A stretch of 24,965 nt of DNA from a virus. Within the stretch, counting starts at the first letter, position 1. Each line of letters starts with the position of its first letter. The DNA lies in the IMG/VR virus record IMGVR_UViG_3300050821_001307, positions 1 through 24,965 of that record; one strand, given 5' to 3'. The notes under the pieces are model-generated. The model was not told the DNA's origin. It did not search any database and saw nothing but the letters and a program-made list of their open reading frames with translations. The position numbers and the translations under genes were made by a program. Below are positions 1,863 to 23,700 of the stretch, in pieces.

Positions 1863-2390
1863 TCAAAGGCCAGGAACCAGTGTTGCCAATCCGGCGCCAC
1901 CGCTGATCACAAGTCCCATAAAGCCAGCGATATCCTTCCGAACCATCGAGGCAACCGGCGAGCACTTGATCATGAACGGGCTTTCCGGCTGCAGCGCGTT
2001 CCGGAGTTCGACAATCTTTTCAAACTCGGTGATCACATGTGGGTCAGGCATCGGCAGCGCTTGTGGCGGCGTCTGGCTATCCATCACGGCGCCTTGCTGC
2101 GTGGTGATGATGTCGATCCATGCCTGATAGCAGTCGGCGGTGATGGTGTTCTTGGAGGCCGTCGCCAGCTTCAGAGCATATTGAAGGTCCGGTAGGAATT
2201 TTGCGTTCATGAAGTTCTGCAAGTCCGTCACGGGTGCTCCGGTAACCGTATGCCCGGTTGCCGCCGCGATGTCGTTCACGATGTTGCCCGTCAGCTTCGG
2301 TGGCGGTCTAAGCGGAGTTTGCGCCTGAGCCATAGCCACAGGAAAGGACAGCACCAAAACGGCCAGGAGGATGCGGACGATGACATTCAT
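1863..2390 (-). CDS. Exported protein of the lysis module, 175 aa
   Basis: A classical signal peptide begins MNVIVRILLAVLVLSFPVAMAQAQ, with an AQA-type cleavage site near residue 23. The mature part has two Cys (ADCYQAW and MIKCSPV), consistent with one disulfide in the periplasm. The last 20 residues (GFMGLVISGGAGLATLVPGL) are hydrophobic, so the protein may be held at a membrane by its C-terminus. An exported N-terminus with a C-terminal membrane segment recalls single-molecule spanins, but there is no lipobox Cys, so this is only a speculation. The ATG at 2390 overlaps the holin stop by 4 nt (ATGA). I recognise no family. Confidence 0.75.
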   Translation of the reverse strand: MNVIVRILLAVLVLSFPVAMAQAQTPLRPPPKLTGNIVNDIAAATGHTVTGAPVTDLQNFMNAKFLPDLQYALKLATASKNTITADCYQAWIDIITTQQGAVMDSQTPPQALPMPDPHVITEFEKIVELRNALQPESPFMIKCSPVASMVRKDIAGFMGLVISGGAGLATLVPGL

Positions 2391-3813: not shown

Positions 3814-6312
3814 TCAGCCCATAATTTCGGTCAAGAACATGATGCCCTTGTTGGTCGAGCCTCCCGTGGAGTTCGCCGGCCAGGCGCAGTTGGCAACGGC
3901 GGACGATCGACGTTGACCTGCATAGGTTTGCGAGCTTGCCGTGTTTGGAAAATCAATTACTTTCAAATATCCTGCCGCTGTCGTTGAGGCTCCGTTGTTG
4001 AATATCAACGCCACCGCACCGATGATGTTGGTGTTCGCGGTCGTGCCCCGGCTGATCGCAGCATCGCATTCGTTGGCGGCGGTGCTCTGAATGGCGCCTT
4101 GCATCTCCACCATGATAAGATTGGCGGCGGACGTCGGCGTGATGCTGATTTCCTGGTTGGTGTTGACTACAAACGATGTGCTCGTGGTCGGTGTGTCAGC
4201 GGTGGCATTAAGCGCCTGAGTAAATTGGACCGGCTCGCAAGGCTTATGAATGCCAGGGCCAAAGCTTTCGACAAAATTAGGTCCGCTGGCATAGGTGCCG
4301 GCCGTTACAAGGCCGGTCGAATTGTATTCGACATAGCCGAGGATCTTGATCGCCTTGCTGGTTAGCGTCGTGCCGTTCGGGGTGTAGTACACGCCCGCGC
4401 TGGTCGCGCTTCCGGAGATGGCTACACTGGTTTGAACAACCCGCTCATTGATCGTCGTGCATTGCGACGTCGTCGGGTTGACGGCGTTGAACAGCGACAG
4501 AACAACCGTGCCCGCATTATCGAAGGCAACTACCCACAATCTGAATGCTGAGTTGTTCGCCGAGCCTAGCGTCGCGCCCGTGGCGTTGGTCGTGATCGAA
4601 AGCGCCGCAGTGACGCTGTCGATAGACCATGATCCGGTTGAGGCGGTGGCGCTTCTGAAAGCGATGCGACATGGCGAGGTCGCAGAGGGATCGGCGCCCG
4701 TGTTATCCTTCAGCGCTACGGTAAGGATGCTCGAGCCGACGCTTGCCGCGAGCGAGCAATTCTCAAAGGCGAATGGTTCGGGGCAAACGCCGGCCGCCGT
4801 GATAGCCAAGCCGTTACAGGTAACGGACGTCACCGTGCCGGTGCCGGCGCCGCCAGCGCCCCAGACAGGATTGTTAGCCGCGCCCTGCGTGATCAGGAAT
4901 TGGCCGTTCGTACCGGGGCCGAGCGCGGACCATGCCGACGCACCGCGATAGATGATCGATCCCTGAGTGGAACCGAAAACCGAATCCATGATGGCGGTTA
5001 GCGTATTGTCCGAATCGTTGCTGGTGCCGCCGGAAATGTTCGACTTGACGGTGTTGTTTCCGGCAGTCGCGAGGTTGGAATTCGCGACCGTATTGGCGGC
5101 GATGTTGGTGCCGGTTATCGCGCTGCCGTTCCAGACGCCGGCCGTGATCGTACCGAGCGAGGTAATGTTACCCTGGACGGCCGTGGGCAGCGTGGACGAG
5201 ATCGAGGGAATGCCGGTCGTTCCGTCGGTGATCAGCGTGCCGTTCGTGGCCGTCGCCAGTCCAGCGACGACATTGGCGCTGCTCGAATAGAGCAGTTGAT
5301 TGAGAGTTGTCGTCGCGGGCCAAGTAGCAGTGGACCATGCTGGCGCTGCACTGGCGCCGGATTGCAGCATCTGCCGCGCGGTCGCGGTGCCCGAAAGGAT
5401 CTGAAGGCCGGCAGCATCCGAATAGGCGACGCCGCCGTTTGAGGCCGTAAGGCTGTTGTTCGTGCCTCCACTCGTGAGCGGAATAGTGGCCGGGCTATCC
5501 TGCAGGACAAGGCCGCTCGTGCCGTTCCATTTGGCAAATCCGCCATTGGTCGAACTGACCGGGCCCGTGACCGTGCCGGTGCCGGGCGAGCCGCCGTCGA
5601 CCAGGATTCGGCCGGTTGTGCCCGACCACAGCGCGATATGACCATTGGTCGAAGTGTTGGGACCGACGACGTTGCCACTACCGATGCCAGGCGCGCAGGC
5701 CAGCGGGATCAGGCCGGTGGCGTCCCAGCAAATGAAGCTTGAGGCCCGCGAGGCGGCGGATGGAAGCTGCGCGATGGCCTCGCCGGGCAGGCCGAGAATG
5801 GCGCGGCCGGTAACGTCGTTGGTCTTGTCCCAACTCTCGCGCATCTGCGCAATGACGTCGGTGAACGCCTGGTTGAGGTCGCGCGCCGCAACGCCGCGGT
5901 TTTCCTGGAATTGCGTGGTCCGCCGCGGCCGCCGGGCGCCGACGATCTGCACCGTGGCCGTCAGGGAATTGGTAAACGTCAGCACCCCATCGGTGATCGG
6001 GCGCGGGATTGTCGAGAGCGGGCCGGTCGGACTGGTCAGTGCCCAGCCAAAGGTCGGGTCGGTCGACAGCTTGCGAACGCCGTTGACCCAAACCTGAATC
6101 CAGTTGTCGACGTCGGTGGAGTCGCCATAGATGGCGAAGTTGACCGCGCAGGCGCAGGTCGTTCCGGAGACGCTATAGGAGGTTCGCCGTTCGGTATCCG
6201 GCAGCGCCGGCACAGGCGGCGGCGGGGCGGCAAAAGAGATGGCCGGGGCAAGCCCGACCATCAAGGCGGCAGCGAAGAGGATACGGCGAAGCATAGGCGG
6301 CAGAATGGCCAC
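3814..6312 (-). CDS. T7-type tail fibre with an N-terminal signal-like sequence, 832 aa
   Basis: Residues 44-166 match the T7 gp17 N-terminal virion-anchoring domain in order: YSVSG, IQVWVNGVRKL, TVQIVGARRPRRTTQF, AARDLNQAFTDVIAQMRESWD. Residues about 210-520 form a Gly/Thr/Asn/Ser-rich shaft with repeats such as STNGHIALWSGTTG and STNGGFAKWNGTSG, and the C-terminal ~300 residues are a beta-rich, presumably receptor-binding part. Unusually, the protein begins with a signal-like sequence (MLRRILFAAALMVGLAPAISFAA from residue 7) before the anchoring domain, and the remainder has 12 Cys. The GTG at 6312 has a GGGAG sequence 8 nt upstream; the ATG at 6294 has none. The gene is bounded on both sides by the CGCAACGCAC junction motif, which may mark an exchangeable cassette. 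Confidence 0.88.
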   Translation of the reverse strand: MAILPPMLRRILFAAALMVGLAPAISFAAPPPPVPALPDTERRTSYSVSGTTCACAVNFAIYGDSTDVDNWIQVWVNGVRKLSTDPTFGWALTSPTGPLSTIPRPITDGVLTFTNSLTATVQIVGARRPRRTTQFQENRGVAARDLNQAFTDVIAQMRESWDKTNDVTGRAILGLPGEAIAQLPSAASRASSFICWDATGLIPLACAPGIGSGNVVGPNTSTNGHIALWSGTTGRILVDGGSPGTGTVTGPVSSTNGGFAKWNGTSGLVLQDSPATIPLTSGGTNNSLTASNGGVAYSDAAGLQILSGTATARQMLQSGASAAPAWSTATWPATTTLNQLLYSSSANVVAGLATATNGTLITDGTTGIPSISSTLPTAVQGNITSLGTITAGVWNGSAITGTNIAANTVANSNLATAGNNTVKSNISGGTSNDSDNTLTAIMDSVFGSTQGSIIYRGASAWSALGPGTNGQFLITQGAANNPVWGAGGAGTGTVTSVTCNGLAITAAGVCPEPFAFENCSLAASVGSSILTVALKDNTGADPSATSPCRIAFRSATASTGSWSIDSVTAALSITTNATGATLGSANNSAFRLWVVAFDNAGTVVLSLFNAVNPTTSQCTTINERVVQTSVAISGSATSAGVYYTPNGTTLTSKAIKILGYVEYNSTGLVTAGTYASGPNFVESFGPGIHKPCEPVQFTQALNATADTPTTSTSFVVNTNQEISITPTSAANLIMVEMQGAIQSTAANECDAAISRGTTANTNIIGAVALIFNNGASTTAAGYLKVIDFPNTASSQTYAGQRRSSAVANCAWPANSTGGSTNKGIMFLTEIMG

Positions 6313-15733: not shown

Positions 15734-16474
15734 TCAACCTGGAAGTCCGCTGCCGCTGCCGCTTCCCCATGACCCCGTGCCGATCGGCGGCCAGGGGCGG
15801 CGAATGCGTCGGGAAGCAGCCATGCGCGAGTTGAAAAATGCTCGCTTAGGCTTCTGCTGGTCGTAACGGGTACGGGCCTCCTGTAGCAGCATCCGGGCTG
15901 CCTGCTCCTCTTTCGTCGCCTCGACAGGATCTTCGTGCAGGCCGCGATAGATGCCGGCGATGACGAAGCGCTGCAGTGCGGTGACAAAGGTCGGCGTGCC
16001 GCTGGTCGAATCGCATAGTGCCCCGGCGTTCGAAATATACTTGACCGTGAGTTGCGCCGGGGTGACCGGAGTAGACGGCGGCGGCGGTCCGCCCTGCGAA
16101 TTGACGAGCAGCAAGGGACCATTTGCCGATCCCTGGATGTCATAGGTCGTAAGCTGCGAGGTCGTGGAATTCGGATTGGAGGTATTCTGATTGAGCTTGG
16201 CCCAGATCAGGAAAACCAGGTCGCTCGGCAGCGGATAGGCCGTGTCGAAATCGGTGTCGGTTGGCGCGGTCGGGCTCGCCGGCAGGATCTTGACGATCGA
16301 CGCAAAGCCCCAGGAATGGCTTTCCGCCATGTAACCGAGCGCGGTCTCATAGGCCGCCGAGCACACCAGCCACTCGTCGGAGCCATCGTCGGCAACATTG
16401 ACGACGTTATCCCCGCACGCCAGCAAGGCGCTGTTGATCGTGTCGAGCTTGTCCCTTGGGAATTCGAAGGCCAT
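15734..16474 (-). CDS. Tail adaptor protein (T7 gp11/tail tubular A-like), 246 aa
   Basis: The N-terminus (DKLDTINSALLACGDNVVN, then WLVCSAAYETALGYMAESHSWGFAS) fits the helical opening of podovirus gp11-like adaptors, which bind the portal ring and connect it to the nozzle. C-terminal helices (ALQRFVIAGIYRGLHEDPVEATKEEQAARMLLQEART) also match. In the middle is a Pro-rich insertion (PPPPSTPVTPAQ, about residues 128-140), and the end is Arg-, Gly- and Ser-rich. There is no Shine-Dalgarno sequence near the ATG at 16474; instead a 28-nt hairpin lies just upstream (16483-16510). It directly precedes the nozzle gene. Confidence 0.82.
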   Translation of the reverse strand: MAFEFPRDKLDTINSALLACGDNVVNVADDGSDEWLVCSAAYETALGYMAESHSWGFASIVKILPASPTAPTDTDFDTAYPLPSDLVFLIWAKLNQNTSNPNSTTSQLTTYDIQGSANGPLLLVNSQGGPPPPSTPVTPAQLTVKYISNAGALCDSTSGTPTFVTALQRFVIAGIYRGLHEDPVEATKEEQAARMLLQEARTRYDQQKPKRAFFNSRMAASRRIRRPWPPIGTGSWGSGSGSGLPG

Positions 16475-16516: not shown

Positions 16517-17545
16517 TCAAGCAGTCCAAACGGCAACATAATCAACCAAGATCGGCCAACCCAGCGCGCCAAAGATCAGCAGCGAATTAAGCTGGCTATC
16601 GAGCGTTGAAAAAATTCCGTTTGAGTTTGTCCCGTTGATACTATTTCCCCCGTTGGGAAAGGTCGCTGGGCCTGTTGCCGTGTACTCTACGAATATAACT
16701 GGTATCTCTACCCAACTTGGGCTTCCGCCTTGAACAACGAAGCGGCGCGTGTAGCCAGTCCCGCCATTCTGCGCCATGGGCACCCAGAGAGTACCCATTG
16801 TCTGCATGTTGTTCCAGTTTTGCCCGTTAGTCTGCACACCGCCATTGACGTTTATTCCGCCGTTGATTGTGTTGAGATTGGTAGCTCGATAATTCAGGTT
16901 AAACTGTTTATTTGTGTGCGCAGTTGGAGCAGAATTATTTCCTTGGCATGCTGGCAATGCCCCTACGGCGCATGGTGGTCCTTCGTAAAGATCAAGCTCA
17001 GTGTCGGGGAAAACGCCATTCACAAAACCTGCAAAGTTTTGCACGGCAAATGATGGCCAAGCCGCATTTCCTGCCGAGCCCGGCGCTAGGCTATCATCAT
17101 AGCGGAAACTAAATTGGAAGAACGCGCCGTTTGTGAAAACTTGCCCGTGTTTCAACGTTCCATCATTCTTAAAAACCGCCGAAACGATAGGTTGGAATCC
17201 GTCATTACCAGCGGTGTTTTGTAGCGAAAGAATTGAATTTGATACGCTGCAAGCAGCCGATGTAATCGGCGGCGCAAGGTCGCCGTTCGTATAACCGCGC
17301 CCATTCGTAAAATCGACATACCAGTTGAAGCCAGCGTTGCCGGTGTTGCTTAGATCTATTGTCGACGCAGACAAAAAATCATCATAGAACGCGAGCCGAT
17401 TGTAGCCGACAGCCGCGGCGGGCGATGGGACCGAAAGAGGATTACCGTGAGTCCAAGCGCGTGCGGGTTCTATGATATTCCTAGACGGAAGCCATAAAGC
17501 AGGCGCAGCGAGAGATGCCCTAAGTAAGTTTCTGCGTGACAGCAC
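16517..17545 (-). CDS. Tat-exported GH16-like glycosidase or lectin, 342 aa
   Basis: The N-terminus MLSRRNLLRASLAAPALWLP carries a twin-arginine pattern (SRRNLL) followed by a weakly hydrophobic stretch and a PARA cleavage-like site near residue 30, as in Tat signal peptides. The mature part looks like a concanavalin-type beta-sandwich: FFQFSFRYDD, AWPSFAVQNF, then DTELDLYEG. Residues E183-L-D-L-Y-E188 fit the GH16 catalytic ExDxxE motif (nucleophile, auxiliary Asp, acid/base). The predicted role is cleavage or binding of a surface polysaccharide. A GTG start at 17545 has GGGAGG 4-5 nt upstream. The gene is visibly richer in A/T than its neighbours (23 of 60 bases G/C in 16861-16920), which suggests recent acquisition. 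The family call is motif-based only. Confidence 0.6.
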   Translation of the reverse strand: MLSRRNLLRASLAAPALWLPSRNIIEPARAWTHGNPLSVPSPAAAVGYNRLAFYDDFLSASTIDLSNTGNAGFNWYVDFTNGRGYTNGDLAPPITSAACSVSNSILSLQNTAGNDGFQPIVSAVFKNDGTLKHGQVFTNGAFFQFSFRYDDSLAPGSAGNAAWPSFAVQNFAGFVNGVFPDTELDLYEGPPCAVGALPACQGNNSAPTAHTNKQFNLNYRATNLNTINGGINVNGGVQTNGQNWNNMQTMGTLWVPMAQNGGTGYTRRFVVQGGSPSWVEIPVIFVEYTATGPATFPNGGNSINGTNSNGIFSTLDSQLNSLLIFGALGWPILVDYVAVWTA

Positions 17546-17557
17546 AATGCCTCCCTG

Positions 17558-18289
17558 TCACGGCGCACATTTAATGGCGACACCGATTCCACCGTTGGCA
17601 TTTCCTGCACCCGTGGTCTGAGTTAGACTTAGACCAGATTGCGTTGAAGTGACTACTACGAATTCGGTTAGCGAGAATCCGGCTGCCGGAGCCGATATCA
17701 ACGTGAAGCCCGAGCCGACAGTTGGGCTACCTACGCTGCTTTCGCGATAGGTCGCAAAAATGAAATCGGTGGCGTTGGTCGTGGATATTGACAGAGGATC
17801 AGGATGGCCGGTGACTGCAGACCCGTCTAGCGGTGAACTGGTATTCGCGCCGCTCACGGCCCAAACAAACATTATCACGCCACTTGCACTGGTTTGATTT
17901 ACCGTGATGGTGATGCTGCTGGCGGCAATTGGTGACGCGGCGACGGCAAACCATGTCTTTATAGGATTTCCTACTGCTCCATCGGTCGCGATCGCCGTCC
18001 ACGCTGATAGCGCGCCCGCGCCATTGTCAGAAATTGTTGTGAAAGGACCGCCGTTCCCGTTAGCGGAAACAAATATGAGATCATTGGAATGAGTTGTCTG
18101 ACCAATAGTTACGTTTGTAGTAGCTCCACCATTTGATCCAGATGCCGGGGTTCCATCAAGCGCTGGCGTCGCCGAGCAACTACCACCGCCACCGGCCGCA
18201 GGGGCTCCCGCCCCGAGCAATGACATCGTTCCTGCAAATGCGGGCGTCAGCCCAAGCCAGAGCGCAAGGAAAATTCGGAGAAAAGGCAT
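17558..18289 (-). CDS. Exported beta-rich protein, 243 aa
   Basis: A signal peptide (MPFLRIFLALWLGLTPAFA, cleavage after AFA near residue 19) precedes a Gly-rich spacer (GAGAPAAGGGGSCS) and a Thr/Ser/Gly-rich beta-sandwich-like domain (TNVTIGQTTHSNDLIFVSANG; WFAVAASPIAASSITITVNQTSASGVIMFVW). The mature part has exactly two Cys, one just after the spacer and one in the last four residues (KCAP), which could tie the N- and C-termini together. The ATG at 18289 is 7 nt after the upstream stop, with GAGG about 5 nt upstream. Like the downstream GH16-like gene, it is somewhat A/T-richer than the tail genes. The function is unknown; it may be a surface-binding or virion-associated protein. Confidence 0.75.
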   Translation of the reverse strand: MPFLRIFLALWLGLTPAFAGTMSLLGAGAPAAGGGGSCSATPALDGTPASGSNGGATTNVTIGQTTHSNDLIFVSANGNGGPFTTISDNGAGALSAWTAIATDGAVGNPIKTWFAVAASPIAASSITITVNQTSASGVIMFVWAVSGANTSSPLDGSAVTGHPDPLSISTTNATDFIFATYRESSVGSPTVGSGFTLISAPAAGFSLTEFVVVTSTQSGLSLTQTTGAGNANGGIGVAIKCAP

Positions 18290-18296
18290 TTGCGCC

Positions 18297-18968
18297 TCAC
18301 TGATCGACGGTGACTACGGCACCTGAAAGCTGCACCGTCCCGCCGTTGGTGATGCAGATGTCCGTGTTGACGGTGTTGGTGGCTGCGATCGCAGCGGCGC
18401 CATTACCCGCCACGAAGCCGGCCGTGGCTGTTGCTAGGAAGCCCGTCGCCGTCGTATGGCCGCCGAAGATATCAGCAGCGGCGGTCGCGCAAGACGTGCC
18501 CGTGGTCGCCTGATACACAGCGAAGTTAACCGCCGCGCCGGGATAAATGAAGATGTAGCAGATGTATTTTTTCTTCGCCGATACGCCCGCGATGATCGTG
18601 TTGTTCGCCGTTACCGTGTTGATCGGCGTGTAGACCTTAGCGGCGGTCTGGCATGGGTCGGCGATAGAAGCGGTCGATCCGTATTGAACGGAGACCGCAT
18701 TCGTCGTTCCCGGCGTTGTCTGGTCGACGCCTACCTTGCCGATTAGATTGGTGCCGGCCGGGACCGCAGCCGTGAGATCGGTATGAAGCTGAGAGGATGT
18801 ATCCGCGTCGATGTAGGTTTTGCAGTTGCCATCCCCGGCGGTCGCGGAGGAAATGCTCTGCGTGTTTCCACCCGCGTCCTTGATGGTCAGCGGGATCGCG
18901 CCACATGTGGCAAATGCGCTTCCAGAAACCAGCGACAATGCAGCAACTAGCAGAAGTTTCCTGAACAT
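18297..18968 (-). CDS. Exported Cys-rich protein, 223 aa
   Basis: Signal peptide MFRKLLLVAALSLVSGSAFA with cleavage after AFA (residue 20). The mature protein has six Cys spread along the chain (TCG, NCK, PCQ, ICY, SCA, ICI). The segment IKDAGGNTQSISSATAGDGN followed by SSQLHTDLTAAVPAGTNLIGKVGVDQT resembles small phage structural or decoration proteins that present a 'KDAxG' beta strand early on; the C-terminal half is beta-rich with AAAIAATNTVNTDICITNGG. The ATG at 18968 has AAGGGA 7 nt upstream and fits the signal peptide; the longer frame to 19046 would overlap the 71-aa gene. Role unknown. Confidence 0.75.
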   Translation of the reverse strand: MFRKLLLVAALSLVSGSAFATCGAIPLTIKDAGGNTQSISSATAGDGNCKTYIDADTSSQLHTDLTAAVPAGTNLIGKVGVDQTTPGTTNAVSVQYGSTASIADPCQTAAKVYTPINTVTANNTIIAGVSAKKKYICYIFIYPGAAVNFAVYQATTGTSCATAAADIFGGHTTATGFLATATAGFVAGNGAAAIAATNTVNTDICITNGGTVQLSGAVVTVDQ

Positions 18969-18979
18969 TTTGCCGTCCC

Positions 18980-19195
18980 TTAGTGAATAAGCGGAATGTA
19001 TTGCGAGTTGCAGGCTACGTTGAAGAGGAGCCCAGTTGGCGTACATCCACCGCCGCCGCCGCCACCGCCAGAACTTGCCTTGCTAACCAGCGGACCAAGG
19101 CCGGACATGCCGCCGATCGACTGCGCCTGCACGGCAGTAGCCAGCGCGGCGAAGATGAAAATGATAATCGCCCGCTTCACCGCGCGCGACGGCAT
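18980..19195 (-). CDS. Small exported Gly-rich protein, 71 aa
   Basis: Signal peptide (VKRAIIIFIFAALATAVQAQ) followed by a short mature peptide with a run of eight Gly directly before Cys (GGGGGGGGCTPTG) and a second Cys near the end (NVACNSQ). The mature chain is about 46 residues with two Cys. Two starts are possible: ATG at 19195, and GTG at 19180, which overlaps the upstream stop as GTGA and would begin right at the signal peptide (66 aa). Neither has a good Shine-Dalgarno sequence. The poly-Gly then Cys resembles the 243-aa neighbour's spacer. Function unknown. Confidence 0.6.
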   Translation of the reverse strand: MPSRAVKRAIIIFIFAALATAVQAQSIGGMSGLGPLVSKASSGGGGGGGGCTPTGLLFNVACNSQYIPLIH

Positions 19196-19989
19196 CGCAA
19201 GTTGCCGTATCCCTTGTTGGTCGAGGCGGTGAACGTGTCATCCTGCAACAGGAAAATGTTGGTCGTCGCCGAAAGGCTTTCGCGCACGGGACCGACATAC
19301 TGTGAATTGTCCGCCGCCATGACGTTCGCCGCGGTTGAGAATTGCGACATCGTCCCCGTGACCAGCGAGCCATCGGCGATCGATGTATTGAGGGCTGTCT
19401 TGAGCAGGGTGACGGACGTGCTAGCACCGAGGCCGCGGACGAGTTCGCCAACGCAATCCCAATCGCCTGCGGTCAGTGGCAAGCCCGTCATGCCGCTCGC
19501 GACAGTCGTGGCGGCCGTGGCGCCGGCAGTCCCCGTCTGCGTGCCGGATTGCGTGCCGGTCGTCGTCACCGACGTTGCCGCCAGCGCATTGGCAATCGTG
19601 GTCGCGATCTGGAACGTGTTTGTCGTGATGCTCGACGGCACCACCCAGTAGACGGTGCCAGAGGTAATGCCGGTTGGCAGCGCGCCCGAAGTCGTGAAAA
19701 CAACCGGACAGGTGTCCTCGTGCGGTAATGTGTTCGAGAAGCCGTGAGCCGTCCAGGTGATGACGGCCGGCGCCGCGATCGTCATGGTGACGGTTGCGGT
19801 TGTGGTTGGACCCGCACAGGTCGAGACCAGGAACTCGCCGACGTTGCCGGCGCTGGCGTTGTCGTTCGTCGTGGTGCCTGGAAGCTGACCTGCGGGAACG
19901 CCCGCGGTTACGATGCCGTCCGCCTGCGCGCCAAGCGAGATCGCGAGCGCGAGGAAGAGGCCTAGCATGACCCTATTGAGTATCGACAT
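19177..19989 (-). CDS. Exported Thr-rich protein, 270 aa
   Basis: Signal peptide within MSILNRVMLGLFLALAISLG with cleavage after AQA (about residue 23). The mature part is very rich in Thr, Ala, Ser and Gly and looks beta-structured. It contains a segment VITWTAHGFSNTLP followed by GALPTGITSGTVYWVVPSS, a pattern often seen in phage tail and fibre-like proteins ('GlxxGt.Yyv'). Four Cys occur (STC, DTC, WDC, LRC). The ATG at 19989 overlaps the upstream gene by 17 nt; an ATG at 19968 (MLGLFLALA) avoids the overlap but has poor spacing to its GGG. Function unknown, possibly virion surface or secreted binding protein. Confidence 0.7.
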   Translation of the reverse strand: MSILNRVMLGLFLALAISLGAQADGIVTAGVPAGQLPGTTTNDNASAGNVGEFLVSTCAGPTTTATVTMTIAAPAVITWTAHGFSNTLPHEDTCPVVFTTSGALPTGITSGTVYWVVPSSITTNTFQIATTIANALAATSVTTTGTQSGTQTGTAGATAATTVASGMTGLPLTAGDWDCVGELVRGLGASTSVTLLKTALNTSIADGSLVTGTMSQFSTAANVMAADNSQYVGPVRESLSATTNIFLLQDDTFTASTNKGYGNLRCRRAR

Positions 19990-20332
19990 AGAGGGTGTCC
20001 GATGTGGTCACGCAGGTTGCCTGTATGGCGTCGGAGGGAACGTAGGGGTAATAGCGCTGATAGCTGCCGCCCTGGCCGAGCAGGATCGACGTCGCCTTTG
20101 TGGCCGCGCCGCCGCCGATGAAAACCCAGCAATTGTCGCCGTTGGTGTTGTTGTTCTGAATGGTCAGGGAGCGGCGCTGCGCGGGAGATACGCCGAGCGC
20201 GCTAACGGCCGTCTGGAACGTGTTGCCCGTGGCAATCGTCACCGAGCCGTTGGTCGTCGCCGCATTGGTCTGGGCAAGGGCGGGAAACGCCACGCAAACG
20301 GCAAGAATAGCTATCAGCGCGCGCTTCATCAT
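19973..20332 (-). CDS. Exported small beta protein, 119 aa
   Basis: Signal peptide MMKRALIAILAVCVAFPALA (cleavage about residue 20), then a single small domain: FQTAVSALGVSPAQRRSLTIQNNN, NCWVFIGGG, QGGSYQRYYPYVPSDAIQATC. The pattern of 'sLtIqNn...', a central Gly-rich turn and 'yyPyvPsd.i.at' is typical of small jelly-roll-like phage proteins. Two Cys (NCW and ATC) could form one disulfide. It overlaps the downstream gene by 17 nt and follows the 68-aa gene by 20 nt. The start lacks a clear Shine-Dalgarno sequence; the MM doublet makes it uncertain by one codon. Function unknown. Confidence 0.72.
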   Translation of the reverse strand: MMKRALIAILAVCVAFPALAQTNAATTNGSVTIATGNTFQTAVSALGVSPAQRRSLTIQNNNTNGDNCWVFIGGGAATKATSILLGQGGSYQRYYPYVPSDAIQATCVTTSDTLYVDTQ

Positions 20333-20352
20333 GGCTGGTGGTCCATTGCATA

Positions 20353-20559
20353 TTAGGACGAATTGACAGGCGTCCAGCTCATGGTGCCGGCCGAATTGCC
20401 GAAGCGGTCGTTGAGCGAGACCGTGGTCTTGTGCGCCGACACCAGCACTTGCAGACCGCGCTGCACCATCTCCTGAATTTCGGAGACCTCGGAACGCTTC
20501 GAGCCGCCGATATTCAGGATGCTGAGGTTCGAGATGGTGACGGAAAATGATCCGGACAT
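20353..20559 (-). CDS. Small conserved-looking protein without signal peptide, 68 aa
   Basis: MSGSFSVTISNLSILNIGGS, then KRSEVSEIQEMVQRGLQVLV and a short beta end (GTMSWTPVNSS). It looks like a small alpha/beta protein with an amphipathic helix in the middle. No Cys, no signal peptide and no membrane segment; it is the only gene between 21211 and 16517 that does not look exported. The ATG at 20559 has GAGG 5 nt upstream and lies 7 nt after the upstream stop. Frame upstream of that (to 20655) is an Arg/Ser-rich shadow of the 214-aa gene. Function unknown; perhaps a minor virion protein or a chaperone for its exported neighbours (speculative). Confidence 0.65.
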   Translation of the reverse strand: MSGSFSVTISNLSILNIGGSKRSEVSEIQEMVQRGLQVLVSAHKTTVSLNDRFGNSAGTMSWTPVNSS

Positions 20560-20566
20560 ATCAGCC

Positions 20567-21211
20567 TCAATAGTAGGCGTAGAGGATCGAGATGTTGATC
20601 GAGCCCGAGTTGCAGGAGGTGTGGCAGGCGACGAGGATCTGATCCGCTGACACAACGCCGGAGTTCGAAAATACCCGCGTCAAAGCGGAGTCCGCGACAA
20701 CCACAGTAGCGTTCGCGGCCAGCGCCACGGCCGAAGCAAAGCGGGTCGCCGAACCGGAATCGCCGATGTCGACGCCGCCGGTGATGGCGTTGCCCGCGGT
20801 CTCTTCGAGGACGACCGCAAGGATCATACCGTAGGCCGGAAGCGTGATGGTCGACGTGGTCGAGGTAGTCGTGGCGGTCATCGCCTGCTGCTGCAGGACA
20901 AACATGTTGGGGCCGTAGAAGAAGCCCTGGCTCAGGAAGAAGCCGATGTCGGACGCCGCGATGACGGCGCAGCCATCGCCGTTGAGGGTGTAGGACGGCT
21001 GCGGCGAGGCCGTCGATGACGTATTGACGACGCGGGCCGGGCCGCCGGTTCCCACGGATGGGGCAGCGCGGCACAGGAAAGCGTGCGTGGTCTGCGTGGT
21101 CGCCGCGGCGTGCGCCGGGGTAATCGGCAGGCTGAAGGGCAGGACCGCCAGCGAGGCGATCAGAAGCGCGCGCGTGGTGGCGAGCAGCGACGTCAAAAGA
21201 CGGGACTTCAT
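20567..21211 (-). CDS. Exported beta-rich protein, 214 aa
   Basis: A long signal peptide (MKSRLLTSLLATTRALLIAS... ending in THAHA-type AHA near residue 35) precedes a Thr/Ala/Ser-rich, beta-structured mature part with SYTLNGDGCAVIAASDIGFF, FFYGPNMFVLQQQ and SGSINISILYAYY. Four Cys are present (FLC, DGC, VAC, TSC). The ATG at 21211 has GAGGAG 8 nt upstream and overlaps the upstream stop by 4 nt. This is the first gene of the exported block. Its last residues (ISILYAYY) look like a final beta strand. The fold pattern is like a capsid or tail decoration protein, but the export signal is strong; function unknown. Confidence 0.75.
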   Translation of the reverse strand: MKSRLLTSLLATTRALLIASLAVLPFSLPITPAHAAATTQTTHAFLCRAAPSVGTGGPARVVNTSSTASPQPSYTLNGDGCAVIAASDIGFFLSQGFFYGPNMFVLQQQAMTATTTSTTSTITLPAYGMILAVVLEETAGNAITGGVDIGDSGSATRFASAVALAANATVVVADSALTRVFSNSGVVSADQILVACHTSCNSGSINISILYAYY

Positions 21212-22203: not shown

Positions 22204-22731
22204 TTATTCCCTCGGCAGGACGGATGCGAACGAGATGAACGTGATCGAGCCGAACGTGCCGGTGATGTACATCGAGATGAACTCGTAGGGCGTGCCCTGG
22301 TACTCGTTGGTGAACAGCAACTCGTACTGGTCGCCGGCCGGGAACTTGCCGGCGCCGGCGGGCGCGTGAGAGTTGGCCCCGTTGGTGATGTCCATGTTGG
22401 CGCCCTCGCCAAACTGGAGCATGCCAAGCAGCACGTTCGAGGAGTTGACGCTGGCGTTGTTCGATCCGACGACGCCGACCTTGTAGACGTCGGAACCGGA
22501 GATGGTGATCGCTGAGATGTATATCACCGCGACCAGATCGATGCGGGCCTGCTGCGGCGTGATCGTCGAGGAGTCCGCGATCGACGGCAGGGTGATGGTG
22601 ATGCCCTGATTGCCACCGAGATCGAGGATCGACTGTGCGCCGCCAACCTGGGCATAGCCGGCCGCCGTGTAGGCCGCCCCGCCGTCGGAAAGCTGCATGT
22701 TGGCGTCGAAAGCGTAATTCCTGCGTGCCAT
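22204..22731 (-). CDS. Bbp16-like capsid cement protein, 175 aa
   Basis: MARRNYAFDANMQLSDGGAA, then GYAQVGGAQSILDLGG, a beta-rich body (ARIDLVAVIYISAITISGSD, SSNVLLGMLQFGEG) and the end GTFGSITFISFASVLPRE. This pattern ('d....LSdG.A...sg......iLDLG') is what I know from the Bbp16 family, the cement protein that decorates and stabilises the capsid of Bordetella phage BPP-1. No Cys and no signal peptide. It follows the major capsid gene by 15 nt, with GGGGA 8 nt before the ATG at 22731. It supports classifying the head module as BPP-1-like. Recognised from pattern and neighbourhood, not by a search. Confidence 0.8.
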   Translation of the reverse strand: MARRNYAFDANMQLSDGGAAYTAAGYAQVGGAQSILDLGGNQGITITLPSIADSSTITPQQARIDLVAVIYISAITISGSDVYKVGVVGSNNASVNSSNVLLGMLQFGEGANMDITNGANSHAPAGAGKFPAGDQYELLFTNEYQGTPYEFISMYITGTFGSITFISFASVLPRE

Positions 22732-22746
22732 GTGAGCTATCCCCTA

Positions 22747-23700
22747 TCAGGCAACAATGGCTGCGTTCGTCCAGCTATCCATGCGGGCGAAGCAGTATTT
22801 GTGTTCGTCGACGATCGAGACGTCCCACGAGATATGCGTGCGGTAGGTCTTGCGGTCCTGGAGAATGCCGACATCCTCCGGCGTCAGGTTGCGCACATAG
22901 ATGCCGCGCAGCATGCCTTCGCCGAGGCTCATGACATAGAGCGATGCGGTGACGGCCGAGCCGCCGCCGTTGCCGGTTTCGGTGAATTGCAGGACCGGCT
23001 GCTGGTCGTCCTTCGGATAGCCCGACAGGAGACGGTGGCCGCCGTAGGAAATCTTGGGCATGCCGACCTCGTCCCAGGTCTGCATGACGAAACCGGACAG
23101 GGTCGTGGTGCGGGCGGCCTGAATCCACAGCGGCAGCGAGACGAAGGGCACGAAGATGTAGGTGGTGCCGCTTTTCTTGGAGACGTTGTTGATGACCTGG
23201 TCGAGATTGAGCAGCGATAGCGCAGCGCCGCCGGAGGCCGTCGAGTTGTGATAGAGCCGGCCGAACGAGGTGGCGCGGACGTTCAAGCCGTCGAATACGC
23301 GCGGGTTGGTCGAGCGGTCGCCCTTGACGAAGGTGTCGACCCAGAGCCGGGCAAAGGCGGTGATGCCCATGCGCTCCTCGTAATTCCGGCGCTCCGGGCC
23401 GTGGCGGTCGACGATGGCGCGGTCGATGTCGATATCGTGGTCGATGATCGCGGTCGCCTCATCGAAGGGCTGGATGATGCCATGCCCGGACGAGGACGAT
23501 TCATTGATGGCGCGGAACTGGGGCGAAGCAAGTGCTGCCTCGCGGAAGCCGACATACTTGGAGCCGCGCAGGCCCTCGAACGGCATCACCTCGAAGATGT
23601 CGCTGTACTGCGTGAACATCTCGATGATGGTGCGCCGGATGTCCTCGTTGGAGAACCCCTTGGCGTATTCCGGCAGCGTGATCAGGTTCGAAACGGCCAT
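22747..23700 (-). CDS. Major capsid protein, 317 aa
   Basis: The product of the gene after the scaffold, 317 aa, of typical major capsid size for a BPP-1-like HK97-fold phage. Features: an N-terminal arm (LPEYAKGFSNEDIRRTIIEMFTQYSDIF), an acidic stretch with IIDHDIDIDRAIVDRHGPERRNYEERMG, a Gly/Ser-rich central loop, FVPFVSLPLWIQAARTTTLSG and YVRNLTPEDVGILQDRKTYR near the end. It would build the icosahedral shell with the cement protein. The ATG at 23700 has AAGGA 9 nt upstream, following the scaffold stop by 17 nt. One Cys. Assignment rests on gene order, size and general pattern. Confidence 0.85.
   Translation of the reverse strand: MAVSNLITLPEYAKGFSNEDIRRTIIEMFTQYSDIFEVMPFEGLRGSKYVGFREAALASPQFRAINESSSSGHGIIQPFDEATAIIDHDIDIDRAIVDRHGPERRNYEERMGITAFARLWVDTFVKGDRSTNPRVFDGLNVRATSFGRLYHNSTASGGAALSLLNLDQVINNVSKKSGTTYIFVPFVSLPLWIQAARTTTLSGFVMQTWDEVGMPKISYGGHRLLSGYPKDDQQPVLQFTETGNGGGSAVTASLYVMSLGEGMLRGIYVRNLTPEDVGILQDRKTYRTHISWDVSIVDEHKYCFARMDSWTNAAIVA

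Follow-up and report, generated by a model that had tools for sequence, protein, structure and literature searches.

Tailed phages are, in the textbook view, built wholly in the cytoplasm. Virion proteins with signals for the general secretory (Sec) pathway, some of them with disulfides, are found in filamentous phages, whose coat is built in the membrane and whose particle is extruded. Phage lysis proteins are also exported by Sec, among them the endolysin Lys44 of fOg44 and the signal-arrest-release (SAR) endolysins (PMC6116005). Here we describe a podovirus late module on the minus strand of the viral fragment IMGVR_UViG_3300050821_001307 (24,965 bases, analysed at full length and called the window below), in which seven genes of an eight-gene block at 16517-21211, and the tail fibre gene, carry predicted export signals in front of cysteine-paired mature proteins, some with domains of virion type. 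The set resembles the Sec-exported lysis proteins in its use, predicted from sequence, of host Sec before lysis, but those are lysis enzymes whereas these are virion-type surface proteins; unlike filamentous phages, the phages described here are lytic and of podovirus type, and their heads are filled in the cytoplasm. No precedent for exported tailed-phage fibres or decoration proteins was found in the open-licence PubMed Central (PMC) literature, subscription papers and preprints lying mostly outside it, and the assembly route is possibly new.

The first-pass annotation of this DNA proposed that seven of eight successive open reading frames (ORFs) in the block begin with export signals. All eight are present on the minus strand, and seven are positive under a purpose-written rule requiring a charged n-region, a hydrophobic h-region and an A-x-A cleavage box; six of the signals are of Sec type and one resembles a twin-arginine translocation (Tat) leader. 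Signals were also called in two window genes outside the block, the fibre gene and a lysis-region gene of 175 amino acids (aa):

20567..21211, minus strand: g214, conserved gene that opens the block, product decoration (cement)-like; Sec signal at about residues 1-35, 4 mature cysteines
20353..20559, minus strand: g68, small protein; no signal and no cysteine, as in its homologues at loci L002 and L023
19973..20332, minus strand: g119, predicted exported 119-aa protein; two invariant mature cysteines, C68 and C107
19177..19989, minus strand: g270, predicted exported protein; Sec score 4.34, 4 mature cysteines, a tail-protein segment
18980..19195, minus strand: g71, short Gly-rich predicted exported protein; Sec score 5.4, 2 mature cysteines
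18297..18968, minus strand: g223, predicted exported protein; Sec score 4.62, 6 mature cysteines
17558..18289, minus strand: g243, predicted exported protein; Sec score 4.0, 2 mature cysteines
16517..17545, minus strand: g342, with Tat-type leader SRRNLLR; 3 mature cysteines, ELDLYE motif
3814..6312, minus strand: g832, tail fibre; Sec signal score 4.58, followed by a predicted podoviral anchor domain, 12 mature cysteines
1863..2390, minus strand: predicted exported 175-aa lysis-region protein; signal score 5.34, 2 mature cysteines

The rule accepted nine of nine known E. coli signals, and scores in the block and fibre genes lie mostly at 4-5.5, with E. coli OmpA at 4.83. Fifteen further window genes were tested from the starts assigned to them, and all were negative. 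Spurious ORFs gave a background of 7 positives in 114, and at that rate the chance of seven or more signal genes among eight is ~2.5e-8. By this finder the proteins have the n-h-c layout and A-x-A box of Sec-exported proteins, and their predicted mature parts have the paired cysteines of Sec-exported disulfide proteins; our recount agrees with the earlier one at 4, 2, 4, 2, 6, 2 and 3 for the seven genes in order. The fibre had been cited only for comparison, as having 12 cysteines; that number stands, and to it we add that the fibre itself has a clear Sec signal. The observation of a signal-bearing, cysteine-paired block is thereby confirmed.

With the major capsid gene as query, 70 related loci were found in viral contigs, at identities of 47-96%. 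At 37 loci where capsid and tail A genes were both matched, 236 genes lie between the two and 82 of them are signal-positive, against 9 of 417 upstream and downstream of the block. Cysteine parity was scored on protein families from 14 related genomes and additional loci, counting only families with cysteine: an even number was found in 49 of 57 signal-bearing families and in 153 of 374 others (Fisher p = 6.5e-11). Signal-bearing families free of cysteine are, by inspection, mostly short single-helix proteins. On the background rates and the parity we reject chance hydrophobic N-termini, and we reject a mere effect of locus position in view of genome G009, where a similar signal-bearing gene set lies behind the lysis genes. 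Family-wide parity, along with the pairwise gain and loss of cysteines described below, backs the earlier suggestion that the signals are likely used, and we consider export of these proteins very probable on sequence grounds. Some relatives mix signal-bearing and signal-less surface proteins, so export is not universal for surface proteins or for relatives; in G013, fibre and block are without signals. Block content differs widely, some relatives having no additional gene and others several kilobases of them; g214 keeps its place directly after the capsid-side genes.

Conservation of the signal is clearest in g214. All 25 aligned homologues have one, with the n-h-c layout and the A-x-A box kept, although pairwise identity in the signal region is only 32%. 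In the mature part C47 and C81 are invariant; a second cysteine pair occupies one of four alternative sets of columns, in 6, 3, 1 and 1 sequences, and a single extra cysteine was never seen among the 25. A g214 profile searched against PDB sequences matched the cement protein of cyanophage Pam1 (7eel_H, E 1.9e-5), and an AlphaFold2 (AF2) model with a predicted local distance difference test score (pLDDT) of 79.5 returned the same chain as top Foldseek match (E 3.2e-5, template modelling (TM) scores 0.32/0.45); by profile and predicted fold the mature part of g214 is thus similar to Pam1 cement. The capsid cement proteins of Pam1/GP4/KHP30 type are immunoglobulin (Ig)-like and trimeric (PMC9698820). 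The likeness to them lies in the mature C-terminal part; g214 differs in having a signal peptide and an additional N-terminal region with the invariant cysteine pair, and in gene position, four genes on from the capsid gene with another likely cement gene ahead of it. Pam5 cement, unlike the g214 homologues, has no signal, and in G310 the g214 segment occurs in a signal-less 141-aa protein whose gene comes after one for a putative capsid protein of 398 aa. A spanin identity was considered and set aside: three of the 25 members matched phrog_20969, at E 2.8e-6 at best, and none of seven members scanned singly did so. At one locus (L076:12949-13569) a 206-aa gene, by eye like a GIY-YIG-type homing nuclease, sits in the block directly after g214.

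The mature N-terminal domain of the fibre (g832 residues 27-210) is predicted to have the podoviral tail-fibre anchor fold. Foldseek matches to its AF2 model (pLDDT 75.4) are all phage tail or fibre chains at ranks 1-17, including chains of LME-1, T7 gp17, HRP29, P-SCSP1u and Kp7/Kp9, with E values of 6.9e-6 for LME-1, 9.3e-3 for the T7 tail and 8.7e-2 for the gp17 N-terminus; sequence searches gave no link to T7 gp17, which only the fold search finds. With T7 gp17-type fibres, those of LME-1, HRP29, P-SCSP1u, Kp7 and Kp9 among them, g832 shares the predicted anchor fold, a long variable fibre after it and a gene in the late virion module. The g832 group differs in its Sec signal before the anchor, its 8-18 mostly even cysteines and its lack of a Pfam match. 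The signal immediately precedes the anchor domain in 20 of 21 related fibres, with cleavage typically predicted before Q-A-P, and the two cysteines of the C-x-C pair in the domain are either both there or both missing. In Microcystis phage Mwe-JY08 a signal-less domain of g832 type begins at residue 1.

Two other phages provide independent fibre cases. G020, which lacks this capsid type, encodes a 657-aa signal-bearing fibre with the signal at residues 1-20 and the tail family phrog_1640 from residue 23; its eight distant relatives have no signals. L201 encodes an 887-aa signal-bearing protein with a Collar domain (PF07484), whose N-terminal domain from residue 37 is common to cultured phages and in four cultured homologues, as annotated, starts near residues 9-16. 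In cultured and distant homologues the domain has no signal before it, so that in no fewer than three fibre types the signal looks as if it had been added to an N-terminus of virion type. A rival idea is that these N-termini are not export signals at all, but uncut hydrophobic segments anchoring fibres in the tail, or chance leaders. Cleavage is only predicted, and the block signals were called by our own rule and not by SignalP, both of which leave room for such a reading. The retention of n-h-c and A-x-A under divergence in 25 of 25 g214 proteins, the recurrent cleavage position of the fibres, the parity of mature cysteines and the homologues that start straight at the domain without a signal make it very improbable.

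The first-pass annotation left two options for the exported proteins, a role at the host envelope or joining of the virion after lysis. Virion-type domains are supported by profile and fold in g214 and g832, and for several block members by family matches in relatives, where signal-bearing proteins match the Pam5 tail spike and tail structural and fibre proteins. A further signal-bearing match in relatives is to a Gly-rich domain. Because the signals stand directly before an anchor fold, Pam1-type cement, fibre N-terminal and collar domains and proteins like the Pam5 spike or other tail fibres, we favour the second option. Under the first, the proteins would act on the envelope or surroundings of the infected cell, by excluding other phages, coating, or cutting polysaccharides, and would have no place in the virion, their domains having been re-used. 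Exported phage envelope proteins such as Lom are known (PMC12309495), g342 has a GH16-like motif, one relative has a signal-bearing 684-aa block protein with an alpha-L-arabinofuranosidase catalytic domain (L017:15563-17617, PF09206, E 5.6e-11), block content is highly variable between relatives, and several kinds of phage carry genes of g119 type. Against this, the fibre has a virion-anchoring fold directly after its signal, g214 has a capsid-cement domain, and inspection of the G009 genome showed no signal-less tail-fibre candidate that could serve as the receptor-binding protein. We regard this reading as unlikely for the set; a host-envelope role is possible for single members such as g342.

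Signals, cysteine pairing and virion-type domains are readable from the sequences, and from them we infer cleavage, export and oxidation. In the model that we propose, the block and the fibre encode virion surface proteins with cleavable signals (Sec, one Tat-like), which would pass out of the cytoplasm while infection proceeds, shed the signal, and reach a folded, disulfide-bonded state in the periplasm. Meanwhile heads and tail tubes would be built, and DNA packaged, in the cytoplasm. Once holin and envelope proteins open the cell, the cytoplasmic and periplasmic pools would come together, with docking onto finished particles through the anchor domain of the fibre and the decoration domain; docking is placed at or after lysis because podovirus heads assemble in the cytoplasm. 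The chain as a whole, from export through periplasmic oxidation to fitting onto particles at or after lysis, we hold to be moderately probable. The signals could also be reconciled with cytoplasmic assembly if export were partial, as is established in general for weak signals, the cytoplasmic fraction building the virion and the exported fraction doing other work, such as blocking the receptors of producer cells. The signals look strong by their scores, most of which are like that of OmpA, and cysteine parity implies an oxidised functional form, so that we judge such a division into two pools improbable.

Several points weigh against assembly from exported proteins. The signal finder is self-made, with a threshold of our choosing, and is not SignalP, and cleavage, export and presence in the virion rest on sequence and predicted folds. 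The fold matches have modest TM-scores, of 0.3-0.5 overall and only 0.3-0.47 for the fibre domain, and neither g832 nor the domain alignment has a Pfam or PHROG tail-fibre match. At L093 a fibre homologue begins with the domain at residue 1 and has no signal; at L058 and L061 no signal was called in large cysteine-rich block proteins; and the three mature cysteines of g342 are an odd number. Docking in a diluted lysate could, finally, be inefficient.

The remaining block genes vary in what they match. Across 35 loci g119 nearly always has a signal and exactly two mature cysteines; at L186, L194-L196 and L199 the rule rejects it, yet a clear leader is visible by eye. Its resemblance to the fibre-tail adaptor gp77 of GP4 (PF23148) is weak, with E 0.15, below the cut-off, in one of five members. 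Importin matches in the PDB (E 0.0015) were discarded as low-complexity pieces, and a decoration-protein match (9nx3_A, E 0.048) was too weak to use. At loci L181-L213 g119 turns up in numerous other kinds of soil phage, beside signal-bearing proteins with even cysteine counts; in eight g119 loci that were read, the neighbouring signal-bearing proteins have even counts in 27 cases and odd counts in 3. Rhizobium phage proteins with a putative tail role match residues 79-126 of g270 (E 5e-5), and homologues of g270 occur at L016 and L155. Signal-bearing homologues of g223 are found in G001 and G009, and g243 has a partial homologue at L018. The profile of cluster C3 gave no match in the PDB. Signal genes overlap their neighbours by 17 bases (19973-19989) and 19 bases (19177-19195), which suggests translational coupling of the block.

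The leader of g342 (MLSRRNLLR) is Tat-like and scores 16.5 bits (E 0.0079) against Pfam TAT_signal, below the cut-off of 22.7. Its ELDLYE fits the ExDxxE motif of GH16; searches of Pfam, PDB and PHROG gave no enzyme match, and a GH16-type enzyme is a candidate identity. The region of g342 and g243 (16517-18289) has the lowest G+C content of the block, about 0.53-0.56, and is poorly fitted by the phage codon model, which leaves g243 uncalled and calls g342 in part; low G+C and poor codon fit suggest that the two genes were recently acquired. Tat-like leaders (RRxF/LxxGL...APAIVRA...LMPVR) recur in small genes of these phages:

L076, 1619-2283: small gene with Tat-like leader
L056, 1534-1788: small gene with Tat-like leader
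G011, 29981-30205: small gene with Tat-like leader
G013, 23286-23657: small gene with Tat-like leader
G012, 16745-18088: small gene with Tat-like leader

Signal-bearing, cysteine-free proteins of 260-273 aa lie near the fibre on the minus strand in G001 (L100, 4915-5736) and G003 (L106, 3697-4479); by eye they are like small outer-membrane beta-barrels, and exclusion proteins are a possible identity.

The late module of the window contains capsid, tail A and tail B proteins, large internal proteins, the fibre and lysis-region genes. The tail B protein matches phrog_376, and a tail lysozyme domain is present among the large internal proteins. The genes flanking the block are:

22747..23700, minus strand: major capsid protein, phrog_212 (E 2.9e-41); no signal, 1 cysteine; the anchor for finding relatives
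22204..22731, minus strand: 175-aa gene adjoining the capsid gene; no signal, no cysteine
15734..16474, minus strand: tail adaptor/tubular A-like protein, phrog_394 (E 7.9e-18); no signal; borders the block downstream

The 175-aa gene beside the capsid gene probably encodes an ordinary cement protein, judging by its position; a profile search against the PDB gave no match. In genome contigs the capsid gene matched only three times, two of the three in Rhizobiales assemblies, and an alphaproteobacterial host is a likely guess. A DNA-level search of phage records gave almost no matches.

We consider it about an even question whether these phages have a two-compartment particle, with a core made in the cytoplasm and with fibres, adaptors and decoration protein exported, disulfide-locked and joined to it at lysis, an arrangement that would have arisen in several soil-phage lineages and spread in the form of exchangeable cassettes for exported surface proteins. 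For variable target proteins, the lack of signal peptides has been taken to support an origin in phages (PMC6199706); if our model is true, a phage gene could encode a signal peptide and still serve in the virion. Final assembly would then take place at or after lysis, and intracellular particles would be immature and unable to bind. Phages in one lysate could in principle share surface proteins, and the disulfide-rich, hardened fibres of soil phages would be explained.

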